Both the position numbers and the translations under genes were made by a program. The notes below the pieces were generated by a model that worked only from the letters and a program-made list of their open reading frames with translations, was not told the DNA's origin and did not search any database. From Bacteroidota bacterium (lineage in GTDB: Bacteria; Bacteroidota; Bacteroidia; UKL13-3): a stretch of 34,089 bases of DNA. This document shows, in pieces, positions 18,724 through 24,941 of this stretch (the stretch's first letter is position 1; each line of letters opens with the position of its first letter). The DNA is taken from the NCBI GenBank assembly GCA_034439655.1, contig JAWXAU010000190.1, positions 1 through 34,089 of the forward strand, in the 5' to 3' direction.

Positions 18724-18763
18724 TGGTTAATGGTTAAGGATAAATGATGTCCGCCGCGGCGGA
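18721..18763. repeat. Compound element: TAATGGTTAATGGTTAA plus GC palindrome
   Basis: Directly at the kmo stop lies TAATGGTTAATGGTTAA followed by the perfect palindrome TCCGCCGCGGCGGA (18750-18763). The same combination, inverted and with a slightly longer palindrome, lies at 28449-28488. Confidence 0.6.
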
Positions 18764-18788
18764 ATGAATGATGAACGGGTTTTTTGTC

Positions 18789-18819
18789 ATGCCGTCCCGC
18801 AAGCTTGCGGAAGAGGCAT
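18789..18819. repeat. Nested hairpin with CCGCAAGCTTGCGG palindrome
   Basis: A perfect 14-bp palindrome (18797-18810) is flanked by ATGCC (18789-18793) and GGCAT (18815-18819), giving a two-part stem. The GTCATGCC...GGCATCT layout is like hairpins I remember as common between Bacteroidota genes. Confidence 0.6.
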
Positions 18820-18918
18820 CTACAACTCACCTGATAGAACTAAGGTACGCCATCGGCGGGCCTCGCCCACTCGGGATCAACGAGCTGAATATATATATAT
18901 ATACCTATCGTAATTCGT

Positions 18919-18932
18919 TTCGCCGCGGCGAA
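18919..18932. repeat. Palindrome TTCGCCGCGGCGAA
   Basis: A perfect 14-bp palindrome in the gap after kmo, sharing the core CGCCGCGGCG with those at 18750 and 28473. An (AT)n stretch (TATATATATATA) lies just upstream near 18890-18902. Confidence 0.65.
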
Positions 18933-18949
18933 CGACATTCGTAATTTTC

Positions 18950-19108
18950 TTATTCCTCTTTCACCACTTTATATATATTAGTTTTACCATCCTCCACTAC
19001 CACAAAGAAGTATACTCCCGCAGCATAAGTTTCATTCAGAAAAACTTTATATGTTTTATCAGAAAATTTGCTGTTCAAAATCTGTTTTGCAAAATCATCA
19101 TATATATA
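18950..19108 (-). pseudogene. Orphan T9SS sorting-domain fragment
   Basis: An open frame of about 53 codons from YIYDDFAKQIL to the stop encodes the second half of a T9SS type A sorting domain. Over the 45 residues from AKQIL to VVKE it matches the C-terminus of the SBBP protein ending at 20922 at about 34 positions, and the DNA is also clearly similar. Upstream of residue YIYDDF the similarity stops; the frame reads unrelated residues (CLPKRQSKH) and reaches a TAA. No PNP motif, beta domain or signal peptide is present. It lies 105 nt downstream of the porin gene on the same strand. It is probably the remnant of a deleted surface-protein gene or a partial duplication. It might be read as a short ORF from a TTG at 19132, but this is unlikely to yield a working protein. 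Confidence 0.75.
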
Positions 19109-19213
19109 ATGTTTTGATTGCCTTTTGGGCAAACAGAAATCCCACTTGCAAAAGTATTATAATCAGAAACATGGCCCCATCAAAATTTACAAGGTGCAAT
19201 TTAAAGACCTAGC

Positions 19214-20566
19214 TTAGAATCTGAAATTCATTACAACAGTAATTCGGCTATCATACTTTTGTAAATCAGGTCTCCATGGAACTACTGTGGTCGGGCCATT
19301 TGTCCAGCCCGAAGGTGAAGTGGTTCCGCCATGCCCAGCGAAATAGGGAATATTCGCCTGCCTATAGCCGTATTCAATTCTAAAGGTAGTAAATTCGGTA
19401 GGCATAATATCAAAAGTAAATGTTCCTTGCTTTATGATTAAAGGCTTTTTAGGATTTAATGCAAGTTCATCGGTATAAGCACTGGGGGCAACTGGCGACG
19501 GAGAAAAAGCCAGATATTGTCCACCATTTGAAAGCACATCTCCCCTTAAAGTAAAAGCAATTTTATTTTTATATAACCATATACGATTGCATATAGAGGT
19601 ACCATACATATAATGTTCTTTCGAGGTAACTGAATCTTTGGCATCCATACCCTTTTCAAAACCATAATGCGAGTTTATACTAAAGGCCATTTGCGAAATT
19701 CCTTTCGATTTCGGTTTGTTCAGGTATCTTGCTACAATACTATTGTCGTGGTGAAAACGCATTCTCTGCGATTGGTTCCCCAAGGTATCCGGATTCTGCG
19801 TATCGTGACCGTAGTAAAAATTAGCTACATACTGAATATTTTCATTGGGACGCCAATAGGTTGAAGTACCTATGCCAGGCGATTTCCCAGCACTATTATA
19901 GGATTGCCATCCATTAAGCATCAATATTTCCTGTTTAAACTTTTTGGTTGGGTAAATCTGTAACCTAGCACCTTGAAAGTAGAATGGCGTAAACTCACAA
20001 ACAGTGCTTCTTTGGAAGCACCAATTATCCTGAACTATATAACTTTCGAGTCCCATATAACTCATGAAAATTCCAGCTTCAAGGTTAATGCCGTACCACT
20101 TATTGAAATGGTAACCTGCCGCACCCTCCCTTATATATTTGAGGTTGCCAATGGATGTGTTTCTGCCACGGTTAACTGTTGGGTCAAGGTCTTGTACTAT
20201 ATTGAGCATAGCTCCATATTGTAACAATATTCGCCCTATCATATTTTTATAGGCTACATCAACACCAAGGCTGGCAAGGTTTATATGGATTTCGTTATGC
20301 CGCCCAATGGTTGATGAAATAGTATGTGTATTGTCTACAGGGTCGGCAAAATTGTAATTGTAATCGGCATCCATATAACCAATGCCCGTAATAATAGTTT
20401 GACCAGTTGTTTTATCTTTCACCGCTAAAATAGGATTTGTTATCCGACTTTGGCCATTCATCCAAGTTAAATCCATTCCTTCAAAAGGGATTTTATACGT
20501 ACTGTCACTTTGTGCATTGCATGTGATTACACCTAGGAAGAGAAAAATTGTACAAATACTTTTCAT
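19214..20566 (-). CDS. Putative outer-membrane porin (OmpL/BBP2-like)
   Basis: This 450-aa protein has a signal peptide (MKSICTIFLFLGVITCNAQ) and an all-beta, aromatic-rich sequence ending in VVMNFRF with the C-terminal Phe typical of outer-membrane barrels. The segment YGINLEAGIFMSYMGLESY followed by FTPFYFQGARLQIYPTKKFKQEILMLNGWQSY is typical of the putative beta-barrel porin-2 (OmpL-like) family found widely in Bacteroidota. It probably forms a diffusion channel; the solute is unknown. A candidate -7 box TAGTTTTG lies at 20650-20643. It stands alone between repeat-rich gaps; the gene downstream is only a sorting-domain fragment. Family assignment is from memory of the pattern and is moderately certain. 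Confidence 0.72.
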   Translation of the reverse strand: MKSICTIFLFLGVITCNAQSDSTYKIPFEGMDLTWMNGQSRITNPILAVKDKTTGQTIITGIGYMDADYNYNFADPVDNTHTISSTIGRHNEIHINLASLGVDVAYKNMIGRILLQYGAMLNIVQDLDPTVNRGRNTSIGNLKYIREGAAGYHFNKWYGINLEAGIFMSYMGLESYIVQDNWCFQRSTVCEFTPFYFQGARLQIYPTKKFKQEILMLNGWQSYNSAGKSPGIGTSTYWRPNENIQYVANFYYGHDTQNPDTLGNQSQRMRFHHDNSIVARYLNKPKSKGISQMAFSINSHYGFEKGMDAKDSVTSKEHYMYGTSICNRIWLYKNKIAFTLRGDVLSNGGQYLAFSPSPVAPSAYTDELALNPKKPLIIKQGTFTFDIMPTEFTTFRIEYGYRQANIPYFAGHGGTTSPSGWTNGPTTVVPWRPDLQKYDSRITVVMNFRF

Positions 20567-20921
20567 TTATTATATATATGTTGTCGAAAATAGTGTTAAA
20601 GAATAAGTAAAATACTATTATTCATTTGTCGCTAACCAATTGCAAAACTAAGGATTTTTTGTGAAGCTTTTTTACAAAAAGAGCAACCTCGTTCTCCCGA
20701 TTGTTTCAGAGCCCCTCTTGATAATTTATACTGACATCCCGAGCGTGCCCCAATATATGCGTAAAAGGTGCTACTTTATACTTCCAACCGCGACGGGCTA
20801 TATACTTGATACTATTAGAGGGCGTGCCGCCGAAGCGGCGTCGGGCTATACGCATTATCCCGCTAGTTACCGGGATGCCGGCTTCTATCCCTCACGCGGC
20901 TAAAACAACTCAATAATTTTA
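20567..20921. other. 355-nt gene-free stretch with porin promoter and structured element
   Basis: The left part holds the AT-rich porin leader and a -7-like box (TAGTTTTG on the minus strand, 20650-20643). The right part (about 20821-20902) is a GC-rich structured element. A plus-strand frame of about 80 codons crosses the stretch, but its second half is simply the translated palindromes, so I do not call it a gene. Confidence 0.6.
20821..20902 (-). repeat. GC-rich multi-hairpin element downstream of the SBBP gene
   Basis: Read on the minus strand, 20-100 nt past the SBBP stop, it has GCGTGAGGGATAGAAGC, then ATCCCG/CGGGAT-type arms (20857-20862 with 20871-20876), then TATAGCCCGAC, then a GCCGC-CGAA-GCGGC hairpin (20826-20839). 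The part at 20839-20879 has a diverged copy in opposite orientation at 24786-24826. The GAGGGATxGAAGC...AGCCCGAC layout is one I recall downstream of many Bacteroidota genes. It may act as a transcript 3-prime end or stabiliser. Confidence 0.6.
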
Positions 20922-23900
20922 CTAACGAAGTTCTTTAACAACTTTATATATATTATTTCTACCACCCTCAATTACCACAAAGAAATATATCCCAGTTGCG
21001 TAATTTTCGTCGAGAGAAACCTTATATGTTTTGTCCGAAAATTTCGTATTCAAAATCTGCTTTCCAAAAGCGTCATATATAGTTATAATTTTGTTTGAAG
21101 TAGAATTAAATTCCATAATTACATCTCCATTTGTTGGATTTGGAAATATATTAATTTCAGCATCATTAATAGCTGAAATGCCCGTCCAACCTACAGTATA
21201 CAAAACAGACGTGCCATTGCAAGCATTGCTGTCTGTAACAAATACTGTATAGTCTCCATCCGTAAGTGGAGTATAATTTTGTGAAGTAGCATTATTTATA
21301 ATACCATTATTCAAATACCATTGGTAAGTATAATAATTCCCCGTTTGCAAACTATTACTCACTTTCGTTATTACAGGAGCAGGATTGGCAAAAACAGTTA
21401 TATTAATGGAATTAGAAGAATCCCCACAGCTGTTACTATCCTTTACTTTTACATAATAATTTCCTGAAGTTTTTACTATAATACTTTGTGTAGTATCCCT
21501 CGTATTCCACAAATAGCTTTTGAATTTTCCTATGCTTAATATTGCACTGTCACCTTCGCAGAAATGTGTGGGATTGCCTGATACTGTTGGAACAGGAAGC
21601 TGACTAATACTTAAGTTTAACGCAATAACAGAATCGCATCCCAAGTAATTTTTCAGAGTATCATAATATATTCCAGTGCTTGAAATATTAATTCCGCCAA
21701 AGTAATAAGTGTTCCCCTGACATATAGCTGCATGAATACTTGAGGAATTATTGGACAAGACACTCAAGTTCAATAGAACAACGGAATCACATCCCAGATA
21801 ATTTTTTAAAGTATCATAATAGGTTCCTGTATTTGAAATATTTTTCCCGCCAAAAATATAAGTATTGCCTTGGCAAATGAAAGTATTAATTGCTGATGAG
21901 TTTGCAGGATTAGTATTGATTGTAACTGTATCATAGTTAGTACAACCTGTAATAGAATCAGTCGCTTTTAAATAATAATTGGTCGCCGATGAAGGCAGTA
22001 CCAGCGGATTAGATACAGTACTATAATACCCAGTAGGAGAAGATGTCCAATTGTATAATATTCCAGAAGTTTTTAATAAGCCTATAGTTATATAGTTTCC
22101 AATGCAAATAGCAGTGTCTACTCCAGAAAATGCTGTTGGTAATGAATAAACTATGATAATAGTTTTTATTGTATCATTTGATGTTATCTCATCTTGAACT
22201 GCATTTGGCTTTACCGACCACACTACAATTTGAATACTTCCAGGTTTAGAGAAAAAATACGACCCAATTAATACACTTACAGAACTATCTTTTTTTATTT
22301 TTCCTTTCCATAAAATCCCTTTTTGCATCACCCCATCAACACTCCAGTAAATGCTATCGGATTTGAGGGTATCTATACCAAAATTTTTAAGCGTAATTTT
22401 AACGGTTCTATTTCCCGGGCAAAATGAATTTACGGGGTAAATAAGAGCTGTTGGCCCAGCATTATTTCTAGGGGCATAAGGAAATTTAGCCAAAAAGGCA
22501 TCATTGTTTGATGAACCTATTGTTTGATATGCTCCCGAGGTAGCTATACCTGAATAACTAAAAGTATTTCCAGTTATATATATACTCCCCGAATCACCTT
22601 TTGATATCCCTGTTCCATTATCTAGTGCGGTTCCTCCATAATAGGTAGCCCATTTAAGTTTTGCGGCTCCTGAAAATTTAGAAACAAATGCATCATAATA
22701 TCCAGCAAAATAAGTCTGATTAGCACCATACGTGGCAATCCCAGATGTACTTTTAGTGTTTCCTGTTATAAATATATTATTAGAGTCATCTGCGGCAATG
22801 TGTCCAGCTACATCATCACTTTTACCACCATAATAACTGCTCCATTTTCTATTTCCTGTATTTGAAAATTTTGCTATGAAAACGTCAGTTCCTCCAGCAA
22901 TTGATTTTTGGTGTGAACCAAGAGTAGTAATCCCAGAACCACTTTCAGTATACCCAGTTATATATATATAATTTGAATCATCTATTGTAATACCGCTACT
23001 ATACTCATTTTCACTTCCCCCAAAATAGGTACCCCAAATCCTATTTCCAGTATTTGAAAATTTTGTTATGTATGCATCGTATTTACCTGCAATAGAAGTT
23101 TGATAAACATTTGAAGTCGTAATATTAGTTTTGCTACTTGTATATCCAGTTATATATAAATAATTTGAATCATCAGTTGCTATATCGACGTTAAAATCAG
23201 GATTATCACTCCCATAATATGTAGCCCAAATAAGCACTCCATTTTTTGAAAACTTTGCGATAAAAGCATCTATATTGCCTCCATAAGAACTTTTGAACGC
23301 CCCTGTTGTTGCTATGTTCGAGTCGCTATATGTATATCCTACAATATATGTGTATCCTGAATCATCTGACAATACTGCTTGGCTGTAGTCATAATTTTCG
23401 CCTCCATAATATGTAGCCCAAATAAGATTACCTGTATCTGAAAATTTAGCAAGAAAGACCTCTTCTTTTCCCCTGCGTGAAAATTGATAACTACCTGAAG
23501 TAGCAATACCTGAATCGCTTATCGTATATCCAGTTACATATATATTATTTGAATCACCAATATCTATCCCATAACTATATTCATTGGATTTTCCACCATA
23601 ATATGTAGCCCACATAAATTTCCCACCACTCGAAAACTTTGCAATAAAAACATCTATTTTACCAGCATTTAATATTTGAAATGCATTTGAACTACTTATT
23701 CCAGTTGTACAAAAAGTATTTCCGGTTATGTATGCAAATCCTGAATCGTTTATTGTTAAATTAAGAGCATAATCATTGTCTCCACTCCCCCCATAATACG
23801 TCCCCCAAACCAAACTCGGATCCACCACCAAAGTATTATGTTCTGTATTAATATTTTTGCCACTAAAAGATACAATTCCACCTTTCAATACATAATTAAC

Positions 23901-24584
23901 CATAGGTTTTTCAGCAGTAGTATTTGTATAATATACAGCGGGAATAGTTTCGGTAAGTTCTCCTAAAGTACTTGTTATCTTTATAGTGTTGTCAAGTAAT
24001 ACAGGCATTGTGCCATTATACTTCAATTGTATATCATTGATGTTTCCGCCTGCTCTTATGATAAAATTATACTTAATAGAATTGGTGGTTTTACCATTAG
24101 CAATAAATTCAATATCTATATTATGCCAAACGTCTTTTAATATAGTTTTGGTATAGCCATATATATTGGTTACACCTTGTTCGCCTGTATATTCAGTATA
24201 ATAGTTTTCGTAATAATCACTGCGGCCTTCTTTTATAATAATTGGGTGAGGATTGCCATTCATAAAATCTATATCAATTCTGTGGCTTTCAAATACTACA
24301 CTGTCATTGATATGTTTGGTTTCAGTCCGCCGCAGCGGAATCGAATCCATCTCAAACATTTCATCTTTCTTTTGCTTTTGATAAGTTTTTGAAGAGACCA
24401 ATTCATAACTCATGCCTTGGTCTTTAATAGCTAATGTAAATCCATTTGCAGAAAAAATCATCCTAACATCATTTCGCACTTTTCGGTTTTGGTCAACCAC
24501 CTGTCCTTTGTTTTCATATAATAAAGCAGGTCTTTTTGAATGAATTTTTTCTACCTTTTGAGCAAGTGTGGAGGGGATTTGCAA
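20922..24584 (-). CDS. Large T9SS-exported protein with seven SBBP propeller repeats (N-terminus frameshifted)
   Basis: The readable 1220-aa frame begins at a TTG with LQIPSTLAQ, the tail of a signal peptide whose start is in another frame (24591-24624). Domain order: an N-terminal DUF7948-like beta domain (about 15-255, beginning LLYENKGQVVDQN); seven consecutive 64-residue SBBP repeats (about 259-706) of the form WATYYGG...DDS..IYITGYT...DAFIAKFS, probably a seven-bladed propeller; an adhesin-like part with two near-identical ~47-residue repeats (NTYxFGGxNIS...TLKNYLGCDSV); an Ig-like segment; and a C-terminal T9SS type A domain (IFPNPTNG to VVKELR, about 1139-1220). Likely a cell-surface adhesin or binding protein. 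The family is often large and poorly characterised. Without the signal peptide it could not be exported, so this allele is either switched off, broken or mis-sequenced by one base. Confidence 0.85.
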   Translation of the reverse strand: MQIPSTLAQKVEKIHSKRPALLYENKGQVVDQNRKVRNDVRMIFSANGFTLAIKDQGMSYELVSSKTYQKQKKDEMFEMDSIPLRRTETKHINDSVVFESHRIDIDFMNGNPHPIIIKEGRSDYYENYYTEYTGEQGVTNIYGYTKTILKDVWHNIDIEFIANGKTTNSIKYNFIIRAGGNINDIQLKYNGTMPVLLDNTIKITSTLGELTETIPAVYYTNTTAEKPMVNYVLKGGIVSFSGKNINTEHNTLVVDPSLVWGTYYGGSGDNDYALNLTINDSGFAYITGNTFCTTGISSSNAFQILNAGKIDVFIAKFSSGGKFMWATYYGGKSNEYSYGIDIGDSNNIYVTGYTISDSGIATSGSYQFSRRGKEEVFLAKFSDTGNLIWATYYGGENYDYSQAVLSDDSGYTYIVGYTYSDSNIATTGAFKSSYGGNIDAFIAKFSKNGVLIWATYYGSDNPDFNVDIATDDSNYLYITGYTSSKTNITTSNVYQTSIAGKYDAYITKFSNTGNRIWGTYFGGSENEYSSGITIDDSNYIYITGYTESGSGITTLGSHQKSIAGGTDVFIAKFSNTGNRKWSSYYGGKSDDVAGHIAADDSNNIFITGNTKSTSGIATYGANQTYFAGYYDAFVSKFSGAAKLKWATYYGGTALDNGTGISKGDSGSIYITGNTFSYSGIATSGAYQTIGSSNNDAFLAKFPYAPRNNAGPTALIYPVNSFCPGNRTVKITLKNFGIDTLKSDSIYWSVDGVMQKGILWKGKIKKDSSVSVLIGSYFFSKPGSIQIVVWSVKPNAVQDEITSNDTIKTIIIVYSLPTAFSGVDTAICIGNYITIGLLKTSGILYNWTSSPTGYYSTVSNPLVLPSSATNYYLKATDSITGCTNYDTVTINTNPANSSAINTFICQGNTYIFGGKNISNTGTYYDTLKNYLGCDSVVLLNLSVLSNNSSSIHAAICQGNTYYFGGINISSTGIYYDTLKNYLGCDSVIALNLSISQLPVPTVSGNPTHFCEGDSAILSIGKFKSYLWNTRDTTQSIIVKTSGNYYVKVKDSNSCGDSSNSINITVFANPAPVITKVSNSLQTGNYYTYQWYLNNGIINNATSQNYTPLTDGDYTVFVTDSNACNGTSVLYTVGWTGISAINDAEINIFPNPTNGDVIMEFNSTSNKIITIYDAFGKQILNTKFSDKTYKVSLDENYATGIYFFVVIEGGRNNIYKVVKELR
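22467..23810 (-). repeat. Seven in-frame 64-codon SBBP repeats
   Basis: The coding repeats are all exactly or almost exactly 64 codons (192 nt) long, from VWGTYYGG to DAFLAKFPYA, with no linkers. They have diverged in sequence, so they are ancient compared with the DNA-level repeats elsewhere. Seven units fit a closed seven-bladed propeller. Confidence 0.8.
24326..24339. repeat. GC palindrome inside the SBBP coding region
   Basis: TCCGCCGCAGCGGA (stem TCCGC/GCGGA) matches the intergenic palindrome TCCGCCGCGGCGGA except for one base. It encodes SIPLR in the N-terminal domain (about residues 81-85). Confidence 0.6.
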
Positions 24585-24624
24585 AAAAAAGTATGATGCA
24601 GTTTAAATAAAGTTTTTTATACAT
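24583..24624 (-). other. Out-of-frame signal-peptide start of the SBBP gene with T8 run
   Basis: An ATG at 24624 opens MYKKLYLNCIILFF, a basic N-terminus plus hydrophobic core, and then meets a run of eight T (24590-24583). With seven T the frame would pass directly into LQIPSTLAQ and the SBBP protein, giving a textbook signal peptide ending AQ. With eight T the frame instead ends about 15 codons further on after ANPLHT. A promoter-like TTTG-N22-TACCTTCG (24678-24645) precedes the ATG. Confidence 0.7.
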
Positions 24625-24644
24625 TCAGGTTGTTTTGTGCTAAG

Positions 24645-24678
24645 CGAAGGTAATTGCAAAACATAACAATAGGATCAA
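24645..24678 (-). promoter_or_regulatory. Candidate promoter of the SBBP gene
   Basis: On the minus strand, TTTG (24678-24675) and TACCTTCG (24652-24645) are 22 nt apart. The second box deviates by one base from TAnnTTTG. It is placed about 20 nt before the ATG at 24624, which supports that ATG as the original start. Confidence 0.4.
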
Positions 24679-24760
24679 AAAAACAAAAAAATATTGCAAA
24701 GCTAGAAAATACAAAAAAAATCGCTTAGTTTAACTATACCGAAACTCAATATATTATAGC

Positions 24761-24785
24761 CAAAAAAAGGGGGACTAATCCCCCT
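24761..24785 (-). terminator. Intrinsic terminator of the efflux operon
   Basis: AGGGGGA (24768-24774) pairs with TCCCCCT (24779-24785) around the loop CTAA. On the minus strand the stem is followed by seven T (A run at 24762-24768 on the plus strand). It lies about 160 nt past the RND gene stop, after two GC palindromes. Confidence 0.8.
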
Positions 24786-24830
24786 GCATCCCGATAATTA
24801 TCGGGATTAAGCGGGGCTTTCGGGATGTAG
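24786..24830 (+). repeat. GC-rich element, inverted relative of 20839-20879
   Basis: GCATCCCGATAATTATCGGG followed by ATTAAGCGGGGCTTTCGGGATG. Positions 24788-24807 form a perfect 20-bp palindrome. Compared with the minus-strand copy at 20839-20879, it shares GCATCCCG-TAA-TA-CGGGAT and the following GCG...CGGG/GCCCG part. The two copies face each other across the SBBP gene. Confidence 0.55.
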
Positions 24831-24857
24831 TTCGGCATTGCCATTCTAAAAACTAAA

Positions 24858-24872
24858 TCCGCCGCTGGCGGA
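24858..24872. repeat. Palindrome TCCGCCGCTGGCGGA
   Basis: A 15-nt hairpin (arms TCCGCC/GGCGGA) in the gap after the RND pump gene; another member of the short GC palindrome family. Confidence 0.6.
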
Positions 24873-24941
24873 GAACTATTATAGTTTAATAAATGGTATT
24901 AAATAGGGCTAAGCGGTTTTTCTTAAATTATATATAATGTA

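Follow-up and report, generated by a model that had tools for sequence, protein, structure and literature searches.

Introduction

The gene inlA of Listeria monocytogenes, which encodes a surface protein, carries a short poly(A) tract at its 5' end (Orsi et al. 2010, PMC2831843). A length change of one base in this A/T homopolymer yields a tiny truncated peptide, and relatives carry a version of the gene without the homopolymer. The tract is polymorphic in the population and its reversion rates have been measured, with gain at about 5.5e-7 and loss at about 4e-8 for A-tracts of 6-7 bases. A published survey further reported that A/T tracts prefer the 5' ends of genes across prokaryotes (PMC2831843). 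Among the Bacteroidota, a report on Ornithobacterium hominis (PMC13183296) proposes that the FSD surface-protein genes are phase variable, by a mechanism called putative there. Regarding phase variation through homopolymers in the T9SS, no report was found in a literature search.

Here, a locus within 34,089 nucleotides of a Bacteroidota draft genome, the whole of which is termed the window, was analyzed in comparison with these systems. Like inlA, it encodes a surface protein, has a short homopolymer at its 5' end, gives a tiny peptide on the change of one base and has run-free relatives; it differs in being represented by one assembled allele and in encoding a T9SS cargo protein. With the O. 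hominis genes it has in common that a Bacteroidota surface gene is concerned, the FSD proteins belonging to another family. The same kind of protein is found in the Bacteroidota cargo proteins of DUF7948 / SBBP / Por_Secre_tail architecture, several of which carry an in-frame T7-T8 in the signal peptide; unlike in these, the start of the present copy is out of frame.

Results

Reading frames at the signal peptide

The features of the gene are as follows.

24514..24624, minus strand: signal-peptide frame as sequenced, ATG 24624, 36 codons, TGA (frame reading; start confirmed via the L043 alignment)
24583..24590, minus strand: T8 run with the +1 frame break (frame reading)
24603..24605, minus strand: TAA in the frame of the long ORF, which rules out an upstream ATG or GTG start there (frame reading)
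20922..24584, minus strand: 1220-codon open frame, T9SS cargo protein, nominal TTG start (ORF reading)
23817..24515, minus strand: DUF7948 domain (PF25778), E 7.4e-38, residues 24-256
22519..23759, minus strand: SBBP repeats with a 192-nt period (PF06739; domain match and repeat period)
21210..21383, minus strand: PKD domain (domain match)
20940..21149, minus strand: T9SS type A sorting domain (PF18962 / TIGR04183; domain match)

The signal-peptide ORF begins at ATG 24624, enters the T8 run (24590-24583) and ends at the stop codon 24516-24514, so that as sequenced it translates to MYKKLYLNCIILFFANPLHTCSKGRKNSFKKTCFII followed by a stop. The run is located at codons 12-14 of the 5' coding region, and its length sets the frame: the offset between the signal-peptide frame and that of the body is +1, and a run of T7 or T10 joins the two while T8 or T9 does not. 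Neither ATG nor GTG was found upstream of the run in the 1220-codon frame, leaving TTG 24584 as its sole candidate start at the run. The earlier note had reported a one-base break in this T-run, separating the signal peptide from the T9SS cargo body, and reading of the frames bears out its coordinates and frames, with the two parts occupying separate frames from ATG 24624 and at 20922-24584.

Judged by its domains, the 1220-codon body is a T9SS cargo protein with DUF7948, SBBP repeats, PKD and a type A sorting tail. The C-terminal sorting domain scored 34.2 bits against TIGR04183 (cut-off 23) and 34 bits against PF18962 (cut-off 27). Since SprA is encoded in the same genome (2462 bits, G000:C81), export of the cargo through the T9SS is plausible. 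The only other DUF7948 protein found in the genome (L094 5286, G000:C9) has no ATG in its first ~160 codons; it perhaps uses a non-ATG start, as a frame break was not seen there.

Homologues in the genus and the ancestral start

In a family-wide search for homologues, only the congener G001 gave any, and none that is close was found in the congener G002; a collection scan for close relatives of the cargo returned merely a 30% match over the C-terminal part. The two homologues of G001 show 75% and 62% identity across the 261 N-terminal residues. The signal peptides of both are intact and in frame, and a comparable T-run was looked for in both and not found. The closer homologue, L043, begins MNKNLYLIILLLVFFSSNSIAQKVEN, which has the same length (26 residues) as the T7-joined MYKKLYLNCIILFLQIPSTLAQKVEK and shares with it both KxLYL and the cleavage region AQKVE. 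The T7 proposed earlier as the joining length is thus upheld by the equal length of the congener's signal peptide. As sequenced, the Sec signal peptide, judged as such by eye, is out of frame with the body, while that of L043 is in frame. From the intact start of L043 and the equal signal-peptide length it follows, on this alignment, that the ancestral start is ATG 24624, that the derived state is T8, a +1 break, and that the joining of signal peptide and body by T7 is not a matter of chance.

The N-terminal domain was compared with the congener on its own, as dN/dS of the whole gene is saturated, and gave a dN of 0.17 and a dS of 0.97. On this estimate purifying selection has acted on the domain during most of its divergence, and the low dN relative to dS implies that the break is recent, is an error, or is not fully inactivating.

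The surrounding island

Comparison with the congener G002 places the gene in a variable island.

18724..24941, no strand: variable island of 6.2 kb with the cargo gene, the BBP2 porin gene and a remnant, absent from G002
19214-20566: BBP2 porin gene, within the island
18957..19106, minus strand: C-terminal remnant of a decayed paralogue, 76% amino-acid identity to residues 1169-1218, 81% nucleotide identity

The remnant, of 150 bp, adjoins the porin gene. The island is flanked by an RND transporter gene and a kynurenine 3-monooxygenase gene, the latter recognised by sequence, and in G002 these two genes are adjacent, ~250 bp apart, without the island. The absence of the island, the presence of the remnant, and the finding of two homologues in G001 but no close one in G002 indicate by comparative sequence analysis that the cargo gene belongs to an accessory family in which genes are gained, lost and decay.

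Poly-T runs and gene breaks across the genome

Among 419 long ORFs in 0.87 Mb of the genome, 17 T8 and 4 T9 runs occur on the coding strand, and in these sampled stretches in-frame T8-T9 runs were found within the first 30 codons in 5 cases. Exported proteins with an in-frame T8 include those at L057 4979-5695 and L088 14498-15451. In DUF7948 homologues from relatives, T7-T8 is present in the signal-peptide region of 4 out of 17, always in frame. In view of these two counts, the T-run itself is ordinary, and T8 close to the start of a gene is in itself nothing unusual in this genome.

The genome is a draft of 3.5 Mb in 205 contigs, 96.8% complete, and encodes both MutS and MutL. A sample of 1.36 Mb (38.8% of the genome), enriched for contigs with T9SS-type genes, was scanned for frame joins at runs of 7 or more and then at A/T runs of at least 8. 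Only one of the 333 runs of the latter class (666 run-strand pairs), the window's own, convincingly breaks a gene, and no other gene broken in this way was found in the sample. In nearly all the other start-type candidates an obvious ATG follows the run, and runs placed in this way ahead of a start account for the apparent surplus of start-type hits at a run length of 8. Two further candidates were rejected: the A9 of L080, which by the look of its sequence we take to be the gene for initiation factor IF-3, presumably with the non-ATG start common in that gene, and the A8 of L102, where the break is located at a nearby G-run. Mid-gene frame breaks were not commoner at runs of at least 7 than at short ones. 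Furthermore, eleven genes of the window that are syntenic with G002 (~4,800 codons) align in single unbroken frames. The scan and the synteny results argue against a noisy assembly and against a genome-wide switch design, and are compatible with a single error.

Three more exported-protein genes in the sample have a single short indel near the N-terminus, away from long homopolymers. The first (L102 17525-18075, G000:C70) encodes an outer-membrane-type secreted protein and has a one-base break near a short G-run, the homologue in G002 being intact. The other two were read from sequence alone: one with a T9SS-like C-terminal tail, whose frame breaks directly behind the signal peptide, at a site that is no homopolymer (L124 2185-3700, G000:C42), and a lipoprotein-like gene broken at a short TA repeat ~70 codons in (L056 16564-17480, G000:C156). 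These three breaks were selected visually, from a scan that favoured breaks near the N-terminus, and show occurrence, not frequency; a dicodon scan, in which non-ATG starts and overlapping genes made up most of the frame-break hits, served only to pick cases for inspection.

Discussion

The reading that we prefer, to which we give an even chance of being right, is a recent, real loss-of-function allele that arose through slippage in a turnover-prone accessory surface gene, and that is possibly revertible. The poly-T stretch is built from TTT and TTG codons, as is usual in this AT-rich genome, and one T would have been gained by slippage within it, in the hydrophobic core of the signal peptide, shifting the latter out of frame. 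As the sequence stands, the ATG directs a peptide of 36 residues and not an exported protein. In principle, the T8 allele could revert at a low rate by a further slip. The open body of 1220 codons and the dN and dS given above indicate that the break would be recent or that decay has not yet begun. The intact start of the congener, the run-free homologues, the variable island, the non-homopolymer breaks in C70, C42 and C156, and the ordinary in-frame T7-T9 runs support a null allele, and neither the congener homologues nor the sampled genome gave any sign of the run being maintained as a switch. Against it, the fully intact body also fits a switchable gene, inlA provides a published precedent for toggling at a short 5' A-tract in the gene of a surface protein (PMC2831843), and a consensus error is possible with one assembled allele.

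Such an error, by which the true run would be T7 and the gene intact and exported, is a tentative explanation that we consider rather unlikely. It would account for a single base alone disabling a gene with purifying selection acting on its N-terminal domain, and for the joined signal peptide having exactly the congener's length, and a draft in 205 contigs is open to it. It is opposed by the frequency of mid-gene breaks, which at runs of at least 7 does not exceed the short-run background, by the uninterrupted frames of the eleven syntenic genes, and by the solitary convincing break at A/T runs of at least 8 in 1.36 Mb.

Evolved phase variation, in which the T-run is a contingency tract and slippage between T7 and T8 turns export on and off, is unlikely. 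Contingency loci typically show such a position of the run in a surface-protein gene together with an intact body, the arrangement corresponds to that of the 5' A7/A6 tract of inlA (PMC2831843), and a putative phase-variation mechanism is reported for the O. hominis FSD genes (PMC13183296). Nevertheless, T8 is short, MutS and MutL are present, the tract is missing in both congener homologues, equivalent in-frame T-runs elsewhere are ordinary, no second convincing break at an A/T run of at least 8 was found in the sampled part of the genome, and other exported genes (C70, C42, C156) are broken at sites without long homopolymers. The design proposed in the earlier note is not borne out by these observations; that note had named relatives with an intact start and no homopolymer as evidence to the contrary, and both homologues found in the genus are of this kind. 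It is likewise doubtful that slippage at this signal peptide reversibly switches the surface export of a T9SS DUF7948/SBBP protein, as a homopolymer contingency locus at a secretion signal in a Bacteroidota bacterium. Given the slow slippage of inlA and the presence of MutS and MutL, any switching at T8 would probably be slow.

Transcriptional slippage or ribosomal frameshifting at T8 might restore expression and let some protein be exported, but this is very improbable. RNA polymerase can slip on poly-T and the body is still intact; the shift needed is, however, -1 or +2 if it occurs on the RNA and +1 if it occurs on the ribosome. Known +1 frameshift sites of the prfB type have a stop codon in the decoding position, unlike the site CUU UUU UUU GCA. 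Moreover, T8 is shorter than the Tn with n>8 cited for transcriptional realignment in a survey (PMC3711429).

Translation from TTG 24584 or from an ATG farther in, with a product devoid of the signal peptide, is scarcely credible: a TTG start is permitted in bacteria and in frame here, yet the product would carry a T9SS sorting tail, which requires prior Sec export, the congener uses the ATG equivalent to 24624, and the first later in-frame ATG is ~40 codons in, inside DUF7948.

Conclusion

This break is apparently one among several in the genome, scattered and probably recent, rather than a purpose-built switch. T7-T8 runs in signal peptides are ordinary in this AT-rich genome and a single broken run is weak evidence for a switch; as it stands the locus is mainly a caution to that effect. 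If the run varies in the population, it would constitute a homopolymer switch on the export signal of a T9SS cargo protein.
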